45,985 nucleotides of DNA. Origin: Singulisphaera sp. GP187. GTDB lineage: Bacteria > Planctomycetota > Planctomycetia > Gemmatales > Gemmataceae. This document shows positions 13,222-40,439 of this stretch, in pieces (positions within the stretch are counted from its first letter, which is position 1; every line of letters starts with the position of its first letter). Location of the stretch: positions 1-45,985 of the forward strand of contig CAMDQN010000047.1 in the NCBI GenBank assembly GCA_945905925.1, given 5' to 3'. Position numbers and translations under genes: made by a program. The notes beneath the pieces were generated by a model. It saw only the letters and a program-made list of their open reading frames with translations. It did no database searches and was not told where the DNA came from.

Positions 13222-13716
13222 ATGACAACCGATTACAACATTCAGGGTCCAACGCGGGTGTGTGCCGCAACCGGGCGCGAACTCAAACCGGGCGACCGGT
13301 TCTTCGCAATGCTGACCGAAATCGCGGGCAAGTTGGTCCGCACGGATTTCGCGGCGGACGCGTGGCCTGGTGCGCTGACGAACACGATCGCGCACTGGGC
13401 CGGGAAGGTGCCGGCGGCCGGGAACAAGCCGCGCAAGCCGGTCGTAAACGACGACCTGTTGCTCGACTGTTTCGACCGGCTCAAGGATTCCGCCGACCCT
13501 GACGGGCTGAATTTCCGCTACGTCGCGACGCTCCTGTTAATGCGCCGCAAGCGGTTCAAGTTCGAGGACGCGGCCCGCGACACGAACGGGCGCGACGTGC
13601 TGATCGTGCGGGACGCGCGTGGCGGAACAATCCACCACGTGGTCGATCCGCGCCTGAATGACGAACAGATCACCGCTGTGCAGACCGAAGTGTTTCGTGT
13701 ACTGGGATGGGAGTAG
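13222..13716 (+). CDS. conserved hypothetical protein
   Basis: A 164-residue soluble protein without signal peptide or membrane segment. It opens with MTTDYNIQGPTRVCAATGRE followed by LKPGDRFF, which reads like a small CxxxGxxLxPG turn seen in several planctomycete unknowns. The middle has LLDCFDRLKDSADPDGLNFR and the end a short charged domain (RKRFKFEDAARDT, VVDPRLNDEQITAVQTEVF). Only one N-terminal Cys is present, so a complete zinc ribbon is not supported. The start codon has a weak upstream ribosome-binding site. It lies between the thioredoxin-like gene and a lipoprotein gene on the same strand. I cannot assign a function. Confidence 0.7.
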   Translation: MTTDYNIQGPTRVCAATGRELKPGDRFFAMLTEIAGKLVRTDFAADAWPGALTNTIAHWAGKVPAAGNKPRKPVVNDDLLLDCFDRLKDSADPDGLNFRYVATLLLMRRKRFKFEDAARDTNGRDVLIVRDARGGTIHHVVDPRLNDEQITAVQTEVFRVLGWE

Positions 13717-13719
13717 TTG

Positions 13720-13830
13720 GGTAGGTGCCGCTTGCCGAGCGGCACGCGATGACTCTCAGATGAAGCGACACGAACGTTCCCGAAGCGATACGACATGCGA
13801 AGCAGTGCCGCTCGGCAAGCGGCACCTACC
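13720..13830. repeat. MITE-like element: perfect 26-bp terminal inverted repeats
   Basis: Bases 13720-13745 and 13805-13830 are exact reverse complements around a 59-base centre. The element begins four bases after the stop of the upstream gene and ends 12 bases before the start of the lipoprotein gene, filling the gap. The arms carry GTGCCGCTTGCCGAGCGGCAC, itself nearly self-complementary. It has no coding capacity. It may act as a terminator and may limit translation of the following GTG-started gene. Confidence 0.75.
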
Positions 13831-13841
13831 GAAAGACTCCC

Positions 13842-14813
13842 GTGAACCACTTTCGCCTGATCGTCGTTGCAGCCGTGCTGTGCCCCGCCGTCGGGTGTGA
13901 GTGGATGAAGACCCACAACCCGTGGAAAGACGTCCACAAGGACGGAGACAAGCTCCGCGAGTTGCCGAAAACCACGCCCGACCAGTTCGTGACGTACCTC
14001 AACGATCACGCCGACCGGCTTCAGTCGATCACCAACGCCGATGTACGTGTCACCGCGCGCGACCGTAGCATCCCGATGCCGCCGCTACGCGGGACGCTCG
14101 TCGCGAGTCAACCGCGAAACTTCCGCATGGTCGGCGACGCGGCGATGGCCGCGAAAGTGGATCTTGGTTCCAACGACCAGCAGTTCTGGGTGTATGCGAA
14201 GGTGCCAACCGTGGACCCGATGTTCGTGTTCGCGTCGCACAGCGACTTCGAGGCAGGCAAGGCGAAGATCCCCGGGGGCATCCCGTTCGAGCCTGAGTGG
14301 GTGATGCAGGCGTTCGGCATGGCCCACTTCTTGCCACCGCACACCCAGCGCGATCTCCCACCGGGCACGCCGACCAACCAGTACAGCGTGAAGACCGACG
14401 AGAAGACCCGCACCTACACCCTGAGTTGGCCCGCAGTCACGCCCGGCGGCGTGTCCGTCCTCAAGGAGATCGTATTCGATGGCGACGCGGCCACCGGGAA
14501 CAAGCCGCAGGTGAAGAAACACATCGTTCGCGACACGAAAGGGAAGGTCATTTGTTTCGCGGAGATCAAGGAAGCGAAGACGGCGCAAGCCGGTGCCACC
14601 GACCCGCGGAGCGGACAACCGCTCCCGGTGCAGTATCCGACGAAGGTGCTCTTGCGGTGGGAGGAACAGAAGTTCGAGATGGAGTTAGAGTTGCTGAACG
14701 CGAAGATCAACCAGCCACTGACGCAGGAAGAGGCCCGCCGGTACTACAACCGCCCGAACATCCCCGGTGCGACGCCGATCGACCTCGCGAAGTACGAGGC
14801 GCCTTTGAAGTAG
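13842..14813 (+). CDS. predicted lipoprotein, outer-membrane sorting-like
   Basis: A 323-residue protein starting at GTG 13842. The N-terminus MNHFRLIVVAAVLCPAVGCE is a lipoprotein signal ending in an AVGC lipobox. The mature part begins with a short charged helix and continues with strands such as TNADVRVTARDRSIPMPPLR and NFRMVGDAAMAAKVDLGSND, then QQFWVYAK. This pattern of a ligand-carrying beta half-barrel resembles LolA/LolB-type or DUF4292-like planctomycete lipoproteins. The family call is tentative; the lipoprotein call is firm. No strong ribosome-binding site precedes the start, and a perfect inverted repeat lies just upstream. It converges with leuD across a hairpin. Confidence 0.75.
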   Translation: MNHFRLIVVAAVLCPAVGCEWMKTHNPWKDVHKDGDKLRELPKTTPDQFVTYLNDHADRLQSITNADVRVTARDRSIPMPPLRGTLVASQPRNFRMVGDAAMAAKVDLGSNDQQFWVYAKVPTVDPMFVFASHSDFEAGKAKIPGGIPFEPEWVMQAFGMAHFLPPHTQRDLPPGTPTNQYSVKTDEKTRTYTLSWPAVTPGGVSVLKEIVFDGDAATGNKPQVKKHIVRDTKGKVICFAEIKEAKTAQAGATDPRSGQPLPVQYPTKVLLRWEEQKFEMELELLNAKINQPLTQEEARRYYNRPNIPGATPIDLAKYEAPLK

Positions 14814-14817
14814 TGCA

Positions 14818-14904
14818 GCGGAGTAAGGTAAAAGGAAAAGGGAAGACAGAGCGGCCCTACTGCCTGTCTTCTCTTTTACTTTTTTACCTTTTACCTTACT
14901 CCGC
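14818..14904. terminator. long A/T-rich hairpin between convergent lipoprotein gene and leuD
   Basis: Bases 14818-14835 and 14887-14904 are an exact 18-bp inverted repeat. An inner 8-bp pair (14842-14849 with 14864-14871) extends the stem with an internal bulge. The right side contains a T-rich stretch (14870-14890). It lies five bases from one stop codon and four from the other, so it probably terminates both genes. Confidence 0.65.
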
Positions 14905-14908
14905 GGCC

Positions 14909-15478
14909 TTACTGAGCAAGCATTCCCACCTTCTTCGCGTAGCTGAACAGTCCCCCGGCTTCCAAAATCGGGGCGACCTCGCCCAGCGGTAACAGCGCGA
15001 ACGTCTCGCCGCTCGTGGCGTTCGTCAGCGTGCCCGCGGTGATGTCGATTACCAGTGTATCGCCGGTGCAAACCCGTTCGATGAGCCGGTCCTTCGTTTC
15101 GAGCGGAACGAGATACCCGCCGTTGATGCTGTTCCGGTAGAAGATGCGTGCGTAGAATTCCGCGACCACCGCGACAACCCCAGCCGCCGCGAGTGCGATC
15201 GGCGCGTGTTCGCGACTGGAACCGCACCCGAAATTCTTTCCGCCGACGATGATCGTGTACGGCGAGGCGTACTCGTCCCCGCCGGGCGTGTGGAACGGGA
15301 CGTGGCCCTTCGGCAACCCGGCCGCGGCGTCGGGAACGCCGCTCAGTGCGTACTTCCCGAACATCTTGTATTCCGCCGGGATCGACGGGTTGTAGGTCAG
15401 GTACTGTGCCGGGATGATTTGGTCGGTGTCGATGTTGTCGCCCAGCACGTAAGCGACGCCTTCAATTCGGGTCTGCAT
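14909..15478 (-). CDS. leuD: 3-isopropylmalate dehydratase small subunit
   Basis: A 189-residue small (swivel-domain) subunit of isopropylmalate isomerase, which interconverts 2- and 3-isopropylmalate in leucine synthesis together with the iron-sulfur large subunit LeuC. Diagnostic segments are VLGDNIDTDQIIPAQYLTYN near the N-terminus, the substrate loop GGKNFGCGSSREHAPIAL (about 75-95) and FYARIFYRNSINGGYLVPLE. Length fits the short archaeal/LeuD2-type proteins, which include homoaconitase small subunits, so related substrates are possible. leuC is not in this window. The gene is alone on its strand; its promoter should lie between 15479 and the divergent activator gene at 15716. Confidence 0.9.
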   Translation of the reverse strand: MQTRIEGVAYVLGDNIDTDQIIPAQYLTYNPSIPAEYKMFGKYALSGVPDAAAGLPKGHVPFHTPGGDEYASPYTIIVGGKNFGCGSSREHAPIALAAAGVVAVVAEFYARIFYRNSINGGYLVPLETKDRLIERVCTGDTLVIDITAGTLTNATSGETFALLPLGEVAPILEAGGLFSYAKKVGMLAQ

Positions 15479-17712: not shown

Positions 17713-17885
17713 GTCGAAAGTCGTAACGTCGAAGACCACAACCGCGATTCTCTTCTCTCGTCGCACCGCAAAGCGGTGCGATGTTGTTTTCCGCCACTCT
17801 GCGGAGCCACTTGGACGCGCGAAGGTCGCGCCGCGGAGCGGCGGAAGACCTCAGCAGTTTGGTCTTCGACGTTACGACTTTTGAC
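17713..17885. repeat. compound inverted repeat with nested hairpins
   Basis: Outer arms 17713-17738 and 17860-17885 match at 25 of 26 positions, including an exact 22-bp core. Inside lies a perfect 9-bp stem with a three-base loop (17761-17769 with 17773-17781) and a GC-rich palindromic stretch around 17829-17846. It occupies the gap between the activator gene (plus) and the first secreted paralogue (minus), both ending here. It may be a bidirectional terminator or a non-autonomous repeat element. Confidence 0.65.
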
Positions 17886-23823: not shown

Positions 23824-23905
23824 GGCGAGCTGGTCGTAAGCCCCCGCGTGGATGACAACTCATCACAGTTGTCATTCACGCGGGGGCTTACGACCAGCGC
23901 TCGCC
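23824..23905. repeat. near-perfect long hairpin overlapping a stop codon
   Basis: Arms 23824-23860 and 23867-23905 pair along nearly their whole length (one mismatch and a two-base bulge) with a six-base loop. It separates two convergent genes and overlaps the last codons and TAA (23888-23890) of the phosphotransferase-like gene. The arms contain GTAAGCCCCCGCG, a motif shared with two other places in this window. It probably terminates both transcripts. Confidence 0.75.
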
Positions 23906-28946: not shown

Positions 28947-30275
28947 ATGACCGAGCCGAACAAGCCAGCGTTCTTCGACGTGCGTATGCAAGGCTTCCGC
29001 GAGCGTGCCACCGTGGACGCCGTTCTCGCACTCCTGGATGCGCGAACGCGGGTACTCGCGGTCGAAGTGGTTCCCGTTCTCGAAGCGGCTGGGCGTGTCC
29101 TCGCGGAACCGGTTGTGTCGGCGGTCGATGTGCCGGGGTTCGCGCGATCCGCGATGGACGGCTTCGCGGTGCGCGCCGAAGACACGCTCTCCGTGCTTCC
29201 GCTCAGGATCGTTGGCGAGTCACTCCCGGCGCGGCCGTTTATGGGCGAAGTGACGCCGGGTCACGCAGTGCGAGTCACCACCGGCGCGCCGATCCCGAGC
29301 GGAGCGGACTCGGTGCTGATGGCCGAGTTCGCGCAACGTGACGCCGACGGTCGCGTATCGGCTCGCGCGCCGGTGGTGTGTGGCAAGCACGTCGTTCGTG
29401 TCGGTGAAGACGTGGCGAGAGGTCGCGAAGTGCTGCCCGCCGGGCGCCGACTCCGCCCTCAGGACGTGGGGTTGCTCGCGTCCGTTGGTGCCGCGTGCGT
29501 TCCGGTCGTGCGACGGCCACGGGTCACGATCCTCGTGACCGGGAACGAACTACTCCCGCCCGGCGCGATGCCCGAAGGCTTCAGGATCGTTGACAGCAAC
29601 TCACCGATGCTGAGCGCCCTCGCGGCGCGAGACGGCGCGGACACGCTGCCGGTGCGCTACGTTCGCGACGACTACGATGCCGTGCGCGACGCGATCCGCG
29701 ACGCCGCGGAGGGGGCCGACGTGGTGCTCGTGTCCGGCGGCACGTCGGTTGGTACCGAGGACCACGCGCCGCGGGCCGTGGCCGAGTTAGGCGAACTCGC
29801 AGTACACGGCGTCGCGCTGCGCCCGGCCGGGCCGATGGGCGTCGGGTTCCTTTTGAAGAGAAGTGGTGAAGTGGTGATGGGGAGAATGGGTGACGAAGAA
29901 GGTAACGAGGCTTTGTCACCCCTTCACCCCTTCACCCCTTCACCACTTCTCTTCCTCCTGCCGGGCAATCCTGTCTCGTGCTTGTGCGCGTACGATCTCT
30001 TCGCCGGGCGCGTGGTGCGCCGCCTGGGCGGGCGGTCGTGGGAGTTGCCTTACGCGAAGGTGGTTCTTCCGATTGCGGAACAGATCAGGTCTGCGGTCGG
30101 GCGCGTCGATTACGTGCGCGTGAAGCGCGAGGGTAACGCGGTGGCACCAGTCGCGTCGGGTGGAGCGTCGAACCTCAGCAGCACCGTGGCCGCCGACGGC
30201 TTTGTGCTGGTGCCACACAACCGCGACGCGCTCGCACCGGGCGAACTCGCGGACGTGTGGCTCTACGACAAGTAG
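28947..30275 (+). CDS. moeA: molybdopterin molybdenumtransferase MoeA with repeat-derived insert
   Basis: A 442-residue MoeA, which inserts molybdate into adenylylated molybdopterin in the last step of cofactor synthesis. Family motifs run in order: DVPGFARSAMDGFAVRAEDT (about 60-80), VTTGAPIPSGADSVLMAEF, VLPAGRRLRPQDVGLLASVG, VTGNELLPPG, ADVVLVSGGTSVGTEDH and FLLPGNPVSCLCAYDLF. Between VGFLL and FLLPGNPVS about 30 extra residues (304-335) are encoded by a 100-bp hairpin element; the insert is in frame and precedes the conserved GNPVS loop, so function may be kept. GGAG lies eight bases before the ATG. No other moa/moe gene is adjacent. Its stop codon sits in a hairpin shared with the convergent gene. 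Confidence 0.92.
   Translation: MTEPNKPAFFDVRMQGFRERATVDAVLALLDARTRVLAVEVVPVLEAAGRVLAEPVVSAVDVPGFARSAMDGFAVRAEDTLSVLPLRIVGESLPARPFMGEVTPGHAVRVTTGAPIPSGADSVLMAEFAQRDADGRVSARAPVVCGKHVVRVGEDVARGREVLPAGRRLRPQDVGLLASVGAACVPVVRRPRVTILVTGNELLPPGAMPEGFRIVDSNSPMLSALAARDGADTLPVRYVRDDYDAVRDAIRDAAEGADVVLVSGGTSVGTEDHAPRAVAELGELAVHGVALRPAGPMGVGFLLKRSGEVVMGRMGDEEGNEALSPLHPFTPSPLLFLLPGNPVSCLCAYDLFAGRVVRRLGGRSWELPYAKVVLPIAEQIRSAVGRVDYVRVKREGNAVAPVASGGASNLSSTVAADGFVLVPHNRDALAPGELADVWLYDK
29855..29954. repeat. palindromic element inside moeA (40-bp arms)
   Basis: Arms 29855-29894 and 29915-29954 are reverse complements at about 36 of 40 positions, with a 20-base loop. The right arm contains three direct units of CCCCTTCA. 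The element reads through in frame as KRSGEVVMGRMGDEEGNEAL then SPLHPFTPSPLL. It resembles the hairpin elements between genes in this window but is inside a conserved enzyme. Confidence 0.85.
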
Positions 30276-39275: not shown

Positions 39276-40439
39276 TTACTGGCACGCCACCGCGACGCGC
39301 ACCGGGCGTTCGGCTTCAGCGAACCGGAATGCTTCGTTCACTTCCGCGAGCGGAAACGACTTCGACACGAGTTCCGCGAACGGGTATCGCGAGTGGTTGG
39401 CCTCGAGGAACTCGACTGCGGTTGCGAGGTCTTGCGGGGCGTAGTTGTGAACGCCGGTGATCGTGAGGCACCGGCGGATGACCGTTTCCGGGAACACCGG
39501 CACCGAGTCGGTGGGGAACACTGCGCCAACCCACACTGCGGTTCCGCCAACGCGTAACACGTCGAGCGACGCGCGACACGCGTCCGGCGAACCGCTCAGT
39601 TCGAGCGCGAGGTCCGCGCCGCGGCCGTGCGTGACTGAGTTCACGAGATCCACGAGCGCATCCGGCTTCGCAAGGTGCCGCGCGCCGAACCTGGCCGCTT
39701 GTGACAACCGACTGTCACTCACGTCGCACGCGATCGCGGTGAGGCCGAGCGAATCGGCCCATGCGCACGCGGTCAAGCCGAGCATCCCGAGACCGAAGAC
39801 AACACAAGAACCTCTCCCCCCAACCCCCTCCCCTAAGAAGGGAGGGGGAGTAAAACCTTTGCGCGCCGCAAACGCACCCTCAGCGCCTTGCCCCCCCTCC
39901 CTTCTTAGGGGAGGGGGTTGGGGGGAGAGGTTCTTCAGCGCCGCCGCGACGGTTGCGGTCGCACACCCCGCGGGCGCCGCGACCGCGTCCGGCAACCCCT
40001 CCGGCACCTTCACGATCGCCGTGCCGCGAAGCAAGTGACAGTGCGTTGACAGCCCGCCCACCGGACCGCACTGCGGCGTGATTGCTTCGTGCCCGTACTT
40101 GCGCAGCGATTCACACTTCTGGGGAAGCCCGCGCGTGCAAAAGAAGCACGTTCCACACGACACCGCGACCGCCCACACAACGCGGTCCCCCACGCACACC
40201 GGTTCGCCGCTCACGGTGCGAAGATCGCCGTTCACCTCTTCGACCACGCCGACCGGTTCGTGACCGAGTACGCACGGTGTCTTCTCTTTGCGCTTCCCGG
40301 TGAACGTGTGCAGATCGCTTCCGCACACTGTACATAGCGACACGCGAGCCAGCGCCTCGCCCGGTTGCAGCGCGGGGCGCGCGCACCGTTCCACGTGGAA
40401 CGGTGTACCGGGTCCGTCGAAGATCGCGGCGTGGATCAT
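39276..40439 (-). CDS. zinc-dependent alcohol dehydrogenase, phosphonate-catabolism type, with repeat insert
   Basis: A 387-residue medium-chain dehydrogenase resembling TIGR03366, alcohol dehydrogenases linked to phosphonate breakdown. It has the catalytic zinc site VCGSDLHTFTG and GHEPVGVVEEV, the structural zinc cysteines CGTCFFCTRGLPQKC, and GGLSTHCHLLRGTAIVKVPE. About residues 169-211 are encoded by a perfect 42-bp-arm inverted repeat, placed just before the NAD-binding CVVFGLGMLGLTAC strand-turn-helix. The insert begins NLSPQPPPLRREGG, a sequence type known from repeat-derived protein segments. Its ATG overlaps the stop of the transporter gene (ATGA, 40436-40439), so the two are coupled. 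A long in-frame extension to 40967 lies inside the transporter gene and is not coding. Confidence 0.87.
   Translation of the reverse strand: MIHAAIFDGPGTPFHVERCARPALQPGEALARVSLCTVCGSDLHTFTGKRKEKTPCVLGHEPVGVVEEVNGDLRTVSGEPVCVGDRVVWAVAVSCGTCFFCTRGLPQKCESLRKYGHEAITPQCGPVGGLSTHCHLLRGTAIVKVPEGLPDAVAAPAGCATATVAAALKNLSPQPPPLRREGGQGAEGAFAARKGFTPPPFLGEGVGGRGSCVVFGLGMLGLTACAWADSLGLTAIACDVSDSRLSQAARFGARHLAKPDALVDLVNSVTHGRGADLALELSGSPDACRASLDVLRVGGTAVWVGAVFPTDSVPVFPETVIRRCLTITGVHNYAPQDLATAVEFLEANHSRYPFAELVSKSFPLAEVNEAFRFAEAERPVRVAVACQ
39807..39934. repeat. perfect 42-bp inverted repeat inside the dehydrogenase gene
   Basis: Bases 39807-39848 and 39893-39934 are exact reverse complements with a 44-base centre. 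Each arm contains CCTAAGAAGGGAGGGGG-type sequence that is also locally self-complementary. The total of 128 bp is translated in frame. Exactness of the arms suggests recent insertion or ongoing gene conversion. Confidence 0.9.

Follow-up and report, generated by a model that had tools for sequence, protein, structure and literature searches.

The element and its host gene

Why does the gene of a zinc-dependent dehydrogenase contain, within its reading frame, a perfect inverted repeat that is translated with the rest of the protein, and what could have put it there? The gene lies in a window (the whole stretch of DNA that was analysed) of 45,985 nucleotides. We regard it as probable, although well short of certain, that the element is one copy, without the nuclease, of a mobile palindrome associated with DUF559 genes, that such palindromes insert blind to the reading frame, and that in-frame copies survive as loops of the host proteins. 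The association between DUF559 and the palindromes is observed; mobilisation by DUF559 is inferred from it. The features of the locus are as follows.

39276-40439, minus strand: zinc-dependent dehydrogenase of the TIGR03366 type, containing the palindromic element in frame
39806-39935, no strand: palindromic element of the A-A type, 130 bp, coding for dehydrogenase residues 169-211
39806-39848, plus strand: left arm, 43 nt, perfect (inverted-repeat search and base-by-base reading)
39824-39848, plus strand: small hairpin within the left arm (CCCCCTCCC-CTAAGAA-GGGAGGGGG), read from the sequence
39849-39892, no strand: spacer, 44 nt; other copies have several unrelated spacer sequences
39893-39935, minus strand: right arm, 43 nt, perfect inverted copy (inverted-repeat search and base-by-base reading)
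39893-39917, minus strand: small hairpin within the right arm, read from the sequence

The initial annotation had reported a perfect inverted repeat coding for an insert in a zinc dehydrogenase, and such a repeat is indeed present. An inverted-repeat search returned arms of 48 nt at 39806-39853 and 39888-39935 with 96% match, and base-by-base reading established that the outer 43 nt of each arm are identical; the perfect match therefore stands, but the extent given earlier (arms of 42 bp, element at 39807-39934) was one base short on each side. Folded as a single strand, the element is far more stable than its 200 shuffles (z = -13.2). The open reading frame on the minus strand stays open across the element, and its product matches TIGR03366 with 436 bits (cut-off 328). 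According to the Pfam scan, the inserted residues lie between ADH_N, which ends at residue 146, and ADH_zinc_N, which starts at residue 220, in agreement with the proposed position in a loop ahead of the NAD-binding strand.

Five more close inverted repeats are located elsewhere in the window (13709-13841, 14809-14913, 17713-17885, 23829-23898 and 29855-29954); their arms of 26-44 nt show 87-97% complementarity, and their sequence is unlike that of the family to which the dehydrogenase element belongs.

A repeat family in the genome

The genome assembly (6.47 Mb in 251 contigs, 96.6% complete) contains the 128-bp element at no fewer than 40 distinct places (40 scored among 208 first-look candidates), and the arm core, with up to 3 mismatches allowed, has 204 matches in the genome compared with 18 for the reversed pattern. 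A sample of 80 stretches (1.5 Mb), most of them around listed matches and 16 of them arbitrary, holds 99 facing arm pairs when arm variants are included, and 27 arms without a partner. When arm variants were scanned, the reversed pattern gave 211 matches; this control is unfair for C-rich arms, and we therefore rely on facing pairs instead. The genome carries about a hundred or more copies of the palindromic repeat, and the genome-wide search with one arm, which the initial annotation had suggested, shows that the arms are not unique to the dehydrogenase gene. No insertion sequence ended by arms of the family was recognised in the sample from this genome. A pair of facing arms 2.1 kb apart (L197), considered as one larger element, proved to be two separate in-frame elements. 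At L034 (8724-9511) the two parts of an element are separated by some 0.7 kb of dissimilar DNA in which small ORFs occur.

The arms are near-identical among copies, whereas the spacers are several unrelated sequences. Many pairs consist of one A arm and one shorter B arm, and each arm contains a small hairpin of its own, which is the design of a REP pair. Rfam returned no match at the gathering score, and its weak microRNA matches reflect the long hairpin. In the 52 A-A pairs, 44 variant positions are common to both arms of a copy, against a mean of 6.4 (maximum 28) in 500 shuffles of arm pairing, and a further 155 are confined to one arm. The perfection of the arms had been read as a sign of either recent insertion or strong homogenisation, and this choice remains undecided, since the private variants shared by two arms fit either. 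The same excess is what could be expected if the palindromes were immobile now, their arms persisting by replication template switching and the in-frame copies being old relics. We hold this to be improbable by a wide margin, considering that about a hundred copies combine near-identical arms with unlike spacers.

Across the 99 copies no consistent target-site duplication was found (the best of about 720 combinations of offset and length reaches z = 3.5), and the exact ends of the element are not fixed. The host DNA 4-30 nt outside the copies is G-rich when read into the element, on both sides, with a GC skew of 0.33-0.35 that falls to 0.04 at 80-120 nt; the copies thus sit at local skew switches, which is a hint as to the mechanism. 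No pairing beyond the arms was found in these flanks.

Reading frame and host genes

To describe the genic context, a three-periodic coding model trained on the long ORFs of the sample was applied to the 200-nt flanks of the 99 copies. The model placed 258 of 300 pieces of 150 nt in the right frame, these pieces being taken from the training set itself. Both flanks are coding on one strand in 48 copies, and 39 of these are in frame and open, where 7.2 would be expected for random frame and length; the remaining nine comprise two in frame with a stop, six shifted with a stop and one shifted but open. As for the other copies, 31 face the 5' side of a gene, 9 the 3' side, 2 lie between divergent genes and 9 fall into neither class. 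For 11 of the 31 copies facing a 5' side, the reading frame continues across the element, so that 39 is probably an undercount of in-frame copies; broken genes may likewise hide among these 31. For REPs a downstream bias has been reported (PMC3733652, as far as the accessible part of that paper goes), which differs from the preponderance of 5'-facing copies here.

Nineteen of the 39 in-frame ORFs, with much sequence on both sides, were scanned, and 18 contain a Pfam family. The hosts include SMC (with the insert in the hinge region), an AcrB-type transporter, M16 peptidase, RecD2, a SMUBP-2-like helicase, DUF1549/DUF1553, Lnt, UbiD, an ATPase of the MgsA/RarA type and a subunit of NADH dehydrogenase. 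In three DUF1553-type paralogues (L026 9130-9217, L033 9116-9239, L073 9588-9711; Pfam scan for L026 only) the in-frame element occupies a shared position, which may be due to a preferred site, to gene conversion or to duplication of a gene that already had its insert.

The same loops in related species

The dehydrogenase loop could be read in 17 homologue loci. It is long (93-213 nt) in ten: G000, G001, G002, G006, G007, G009, G012, G014, G016 and G018. In six of these (G000, G002, G006, G014, G016, G018) the inverted repeat exceeds all 200 shuffles, and these six palindromic loops represent at least four kinds of sequence, those of G002 and G014 being unlike the arms in the window. The remaining four appear arm-like by eye only, with inverted-repeat scores not above the shuffles; G007, G009 and G012 are alike and share flanks, and G001 is degenerate. 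The frame is shifted in G009 and G016. The loop is short (42-60 nt) in G011, G017 and the more distant homologues of G013, G004, G028, G019 and G026, so that the insert is not common to those distant homologues that were read. The dehydrogenase loops of the congeners are too divergent to provide an exact empty counterpart of the window element's site.

A comparable picture emerges for mobA, where 16 of the 19 loci tried were readable; the motif was not found in G001 and G011, and a contig end interrupts G006. A DUF559 cassette occupies the loop in G000 and G003, and an in-frame palindrome of another sequence occupies it in G007. The loops of G012, G015, G016 and G009 are longer, with arm-like stretches seen by eye only and no repeat above shuffles, and that of G009 is frame-shifted. 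In nine loci the loop is short. The unlike inserts at both loops identify them as tolerant sites, and both were used more than once within the genus. That related species have unlike inserts in the same loop is also difficult to combine with immobile relics.

The repeated occupation of these two loops might suggest that the inserts are kept as a useful loop or domain of the host protein. Considering, however, that the hosts are unrelated, that the encoded residues depend on the frame used, that the insert sequence differs between species and that several congeners do without it, we find selected domain insertion hardly credible. The 251 contigs of the assembly could raise the suspicion of an artefact of assembly. 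This idea deserves next to no weight, because in the near-finished assemblies of G007 (1 contig) and G012 (3 contigs) both sites are likewise occupied by long loops that keep the frame, and the mobA palindrome of G007 is clear.

Arms in other phyla and their linkage to DUF559

The exact 24-mer arm pattern occurs in at least 107 stretches of named genomes, from Chloroflexota, Bacteroidota, Cyanobacteria, Armatimonadota, Spirochaetes, Myxococcota, Planctomycetes and others. Together with the dispersal in the genome and the predominance of open frames among intragenic copies, this bears out the earlier suggestion of a wide family. Under a loose rule, 37 of 114 arms in the cross-phylum stretches have a facing partner within 220 nt, making 36 pairs. 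Thirty-one of them are far enough from an end, and 8 lie within an ORF that extends 80 residues or more to either side; three of the 8 come from the assembly of G003, a congener, and another has a host that we take to be a tRNA-guanine transglycosylase. At L165 (6315-6422) a palindrome lies in a long ORF whose downstream part resembles, in our estimation, the end of an intein. Among 99 relatives, the own genome included, the number of arm matches ranges from 0 to 204.

Which gene could be the partner of these arms? In the own genome copies of the repeat flank a DUF559 gene (C89), and the reading frame of a MobA-type protein extends over the entire segment; in G003 the DUF559 gene is likewise between arms and in frame in mobA. 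A DUF559 profile run on the 107 arm-bearing stretches found 8 genes, all of them 26-350 nt from an arm (product of chances 1.8e-6). We then considered 60 DUF559 loci, from relatives and from arm-bearing genomes of other phyla, 48 of which had sufficient score and flank. An inverted repeat joins the two flanks of the DUF559 gene (score at least 18) in 33 of the 48, compared with none of 44 windows displaced by 800-1150 nt and none of 48 shuffles. Among the relatives, which were not chosen for arms, 17 of 29 loci are joined, 7 have a palindrome on one side and 5 have neither (displaced windows: 0 of 26 joined, 2 of 26 one-sided). Of the 19 loci from arm-bearing genomes in other phyla, 16 are joined and 3 have neither (displaced windows: 0 of 18 joined, 1 of 18 one-sided). 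The neighbourhood of mobA, used as another control, gave 0 of 23 joined and 1 of 23 one-sided. There is no clear palindrome at 8 of the 48 loci, and some of the loci are mutually related, so these counts are not independent draws.

The arms near DUF559 face in or out and often have a common build, in which a few bases separate a CCCTCTCC-GGAGAGGG-type hairpin from a CCTCAC-like tag. Tag-like sequence is present in the DUF559 flanks of 25 of 29 loci in relatives and 17 of 19 in other phyla; the corresponding displaced windows have it in 2 of 26 and 1 of 18 cases. In two Hymenobacter loci (L301, L302), which have strong upstream palindromes, DUF559 is in the same open frame as the gene directly downstream, presumably a RecQ-like helicase.

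The co-occurrence of arms and DUF559 in genomes was assessed with cut-offs of our own choice. Strong DUF559 matches are present in 14 of the 18 relatives whose arm matches number 10 or more and in 20 of 81 others (p = 4e-5); within the genus the co-occurrence is not significant (11 of 13 vs 4 of 6, p = 0.37). A DUF559 match of any strength was obtained for 21 of 25 arm-bearing genomes from other phyla; it is strong (E up to 1e-20) in 16, and 9 of the 25 lack a strong match. We picked these genomes ourselves, and L122, L145, L147 and L153 were already known to hold DUF559.

Arm-rich genomes without strong DUF559 do therefore exist, G029 with 181 arm matches being one of the four such relatives among the 18, and they leave room for the possibility that the palindromes are moved by another enzyme, either Y1/RAYT or an unrecognised one, with DUF559 as a passenger that gains by its position or by cutting hairpins. 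The own genome has three matches of the Y1_Tnp type (one below cut-off), and RAYTs are the known partners of REP elements, as stated in the available portion of PMC3733652. On the other hand, in several phyla it is DUF559 that such arms enclose, and the Y1 genes at L038 and L065 are flanked, as judged by eye, by palindromes of other sequence. RAYT was considered as the partner and rejected, given that no copy of the window-element family lies within 700 nt on either side of any of the three Y1_Tnp genes. We consider a different enzyme to be a rather unlikely but serious alternative.

The DUF559 domain

What kind of protein is DUF559? The residues D42, E53 and H59, which we assume to be of the catalytic type, are present in all 61 of the 61 DUF559 domains. 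An AF2 model of the DUF559 domain of G003 (pLDDT 84, from a 7-row alignment) has as its only PDB matches with E up to 0.001 the structure 3hrl and two chains of I-Bth0305I (3r3p), the latter with E 2.4e-5 and TM 0.70/0.82. The next structural matches are PvuRts1I and mitoribosomal proteins, and Vsr takes rank 9 (E 0.019). By sequence the match to 3hrl is clear (1.3e-15) and that to 3r3p weak (E 0.03), and with PADLOC one of two DUF559 domains gave weak matches, the best being 'homing endonuclease' (E 1.4e-4). DUF559 is thus predicted, mainly on the model, to be a PD-(D/E)XK-type nuclease with the fold of Vsr and homing endonucleases. Work on I-Bth0305I is cited in the part of PMC11879112 available to us. 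In the accessible text of PMC12907096, Caulobacter VsrA, which shares the Pfam domain discussed here, is treated as a Vsr-like DUF559 endonuclease with a role of the mismatch-repair type, and palindromes are not mentioned in the main text.

Cassettes inside conserved genes

IleRS, LeuRS and YbeY are essential proteins. In other phyla, DUF559 interrupts, without loss of frame, the genes of IleRS (TIGR00392; 802 and 721 bits, cut-off 621), LeuRS (823 bits, cut-off 548) and YbeY (106 bits, cut-off 45). More in-frame hosts are methylases of the type ISP and MmeI-like kinds, HsdM/N6-methylase and an AddB-like protein, the last with a score below the cut-off of its model. Joined inverted-repeat flanks are present in all these cassettes except that in HsdM, which is cut by a contig end and has only one short upstream palindrome. 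No intein family was matched in the 10 proteins scanned with Pfam, and the frames run through; the cassette therefore appears to stay in the protein.

The IleRS loop was read in 31 loci (the 30 listed out of 59 genomes, plus L294). The cassette occupies one site in 4 of them and is absent from 27. No second IleRS was seen in G117, G130 and G155 among the matches listed, and in relatives of G117 with about 95% identity the site is empty. The four DUF559 domains of IleRS form one supported clade (96/85), in a tree built on few columns and with the row of G117 flagged for composition. These sequences show the pattern of site-specific, homing-like inheritance, although repeated losses could have produced it as well. 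That close relatives of a cassette-bearing IleRS have empty sites is a further difficulty for immobile relics. Patchy presence at the same site together with empty alleles holds for IleRS; it has not been shown for the window element.

A possible mechanism

On the reading that we prefer, the element consists of two inverted arms, each composed of a small C/G hairpin and a CCTC[A/T]C-like tag. The arms enclose either a short spacer, the common form found in the window, or a DUF559 gene, presumed to be the autonomous form. DUF559 would most likely cut or nick at the arms or at targets, and repair would copy the arm-bounded DNA. Insertion would ignore the reading frame, and selection would retain in-frame copies, the frame-breaking ones being lost. 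Two of the three arm frames per strand are without stops, so that in-frame copies in tolerant loops could survive, translated as about 30-50 residues. It is only inferred that the arms spread through cleavage of DNA by DUF559, that this spread proceeds via the repair of breaks and that the host proteins remain functional, and no movement of palindromes or cassettes was observed in these data. A more general statement, namely that CCTCAC-tagged palindromes with DUF559 form a cross-phylum element that inserts in frame, essential genes included, and stays unspliced, its nuclease-less palindromes multiplying as translated loops, is one for which we see the chances as evenly balanced.

If the proposal is correct, a domain of unknown function would acquire a role and a widespread bacterial palindrome a partner, and the element would reshape proteins by remaining in them, as a counterpart of the intein that is never removed. 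It would also explain segments of the P-x-P-SP-x-x-GEG type in unrelated proteins of several phyla, and annotators could account for low-complexity proline/glycine segments shared by proteins that are otherwise unrelated. It would become testable which loops of IleRS, LeuRS, YbeY or SMC tolerate 40-150 foreign residues.

Relation to known systems

Homing endonuclease elements resemble the DUF559 cassettes in the fold of the I-Bth0305I catalytic domain, which is only predicted here, and in the same-site, patchy and monophyletic occurrence within IleRS. The cassettes differ in that no intein family was matched in the 10 proteins scanned with Pfam, and we know of no homing element with palindromic arms and abundant nuclease-less copies. 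Insertion sequences and MITEs share with the family the short inverted-repeat form and high copy number; the differences are that no target-site duplication was found and that the presumed partner is not a known transposase. DUF559 cassettes do have the same arm design as the nuclease-less copies, but DUF559 has not been shown to be a mobility enzyme.

Rickettsia palindromic elements are short palindromes in frame in unrelated protein genes and are translated (review PMC10969869, accessible part). The elements described here are similar, being palindromes of about 100-150 bp that lie in frame in unrelated genes; unlike the Rickettsia elements, their arm sequence is present in many phyla and tied to a nuclease gene, and the portion of PMC10969869 available to us names no enzyme. 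Within the open-licence literature searched, no title on DUF559 concerns palindromes, and nothing relevant joins DUF559 with palindromic repeats, tRNA synthetases or mobile elements, or Vsr with RAYT. The novelty of the link between DUF559 and palindromes is provisional, subscription journals being mostly outside the search.

REP/REPIN sequences are, according to the part of PMC3733652 that was accessible, opposed pairs of small hairpins with a conserved tag, present in many copies and flanking a cognate nuclease gene. The present family likewise has two REP-like hairpins in opposite orientation and a high copy number. Its tag is CCTC[A/T]C-like and not GTAG or CGTC, the arms reading AACCTCTCCCC..., its linked gene is DUF559 and not a tyrosine transposase, and its copies are often in frame inside genes. 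The own genome also has RAYT-like genes with palindromes of their own, at L038 (9835-10431) and L065 (3946-4575), which constitute a second system, of the RAYT type.
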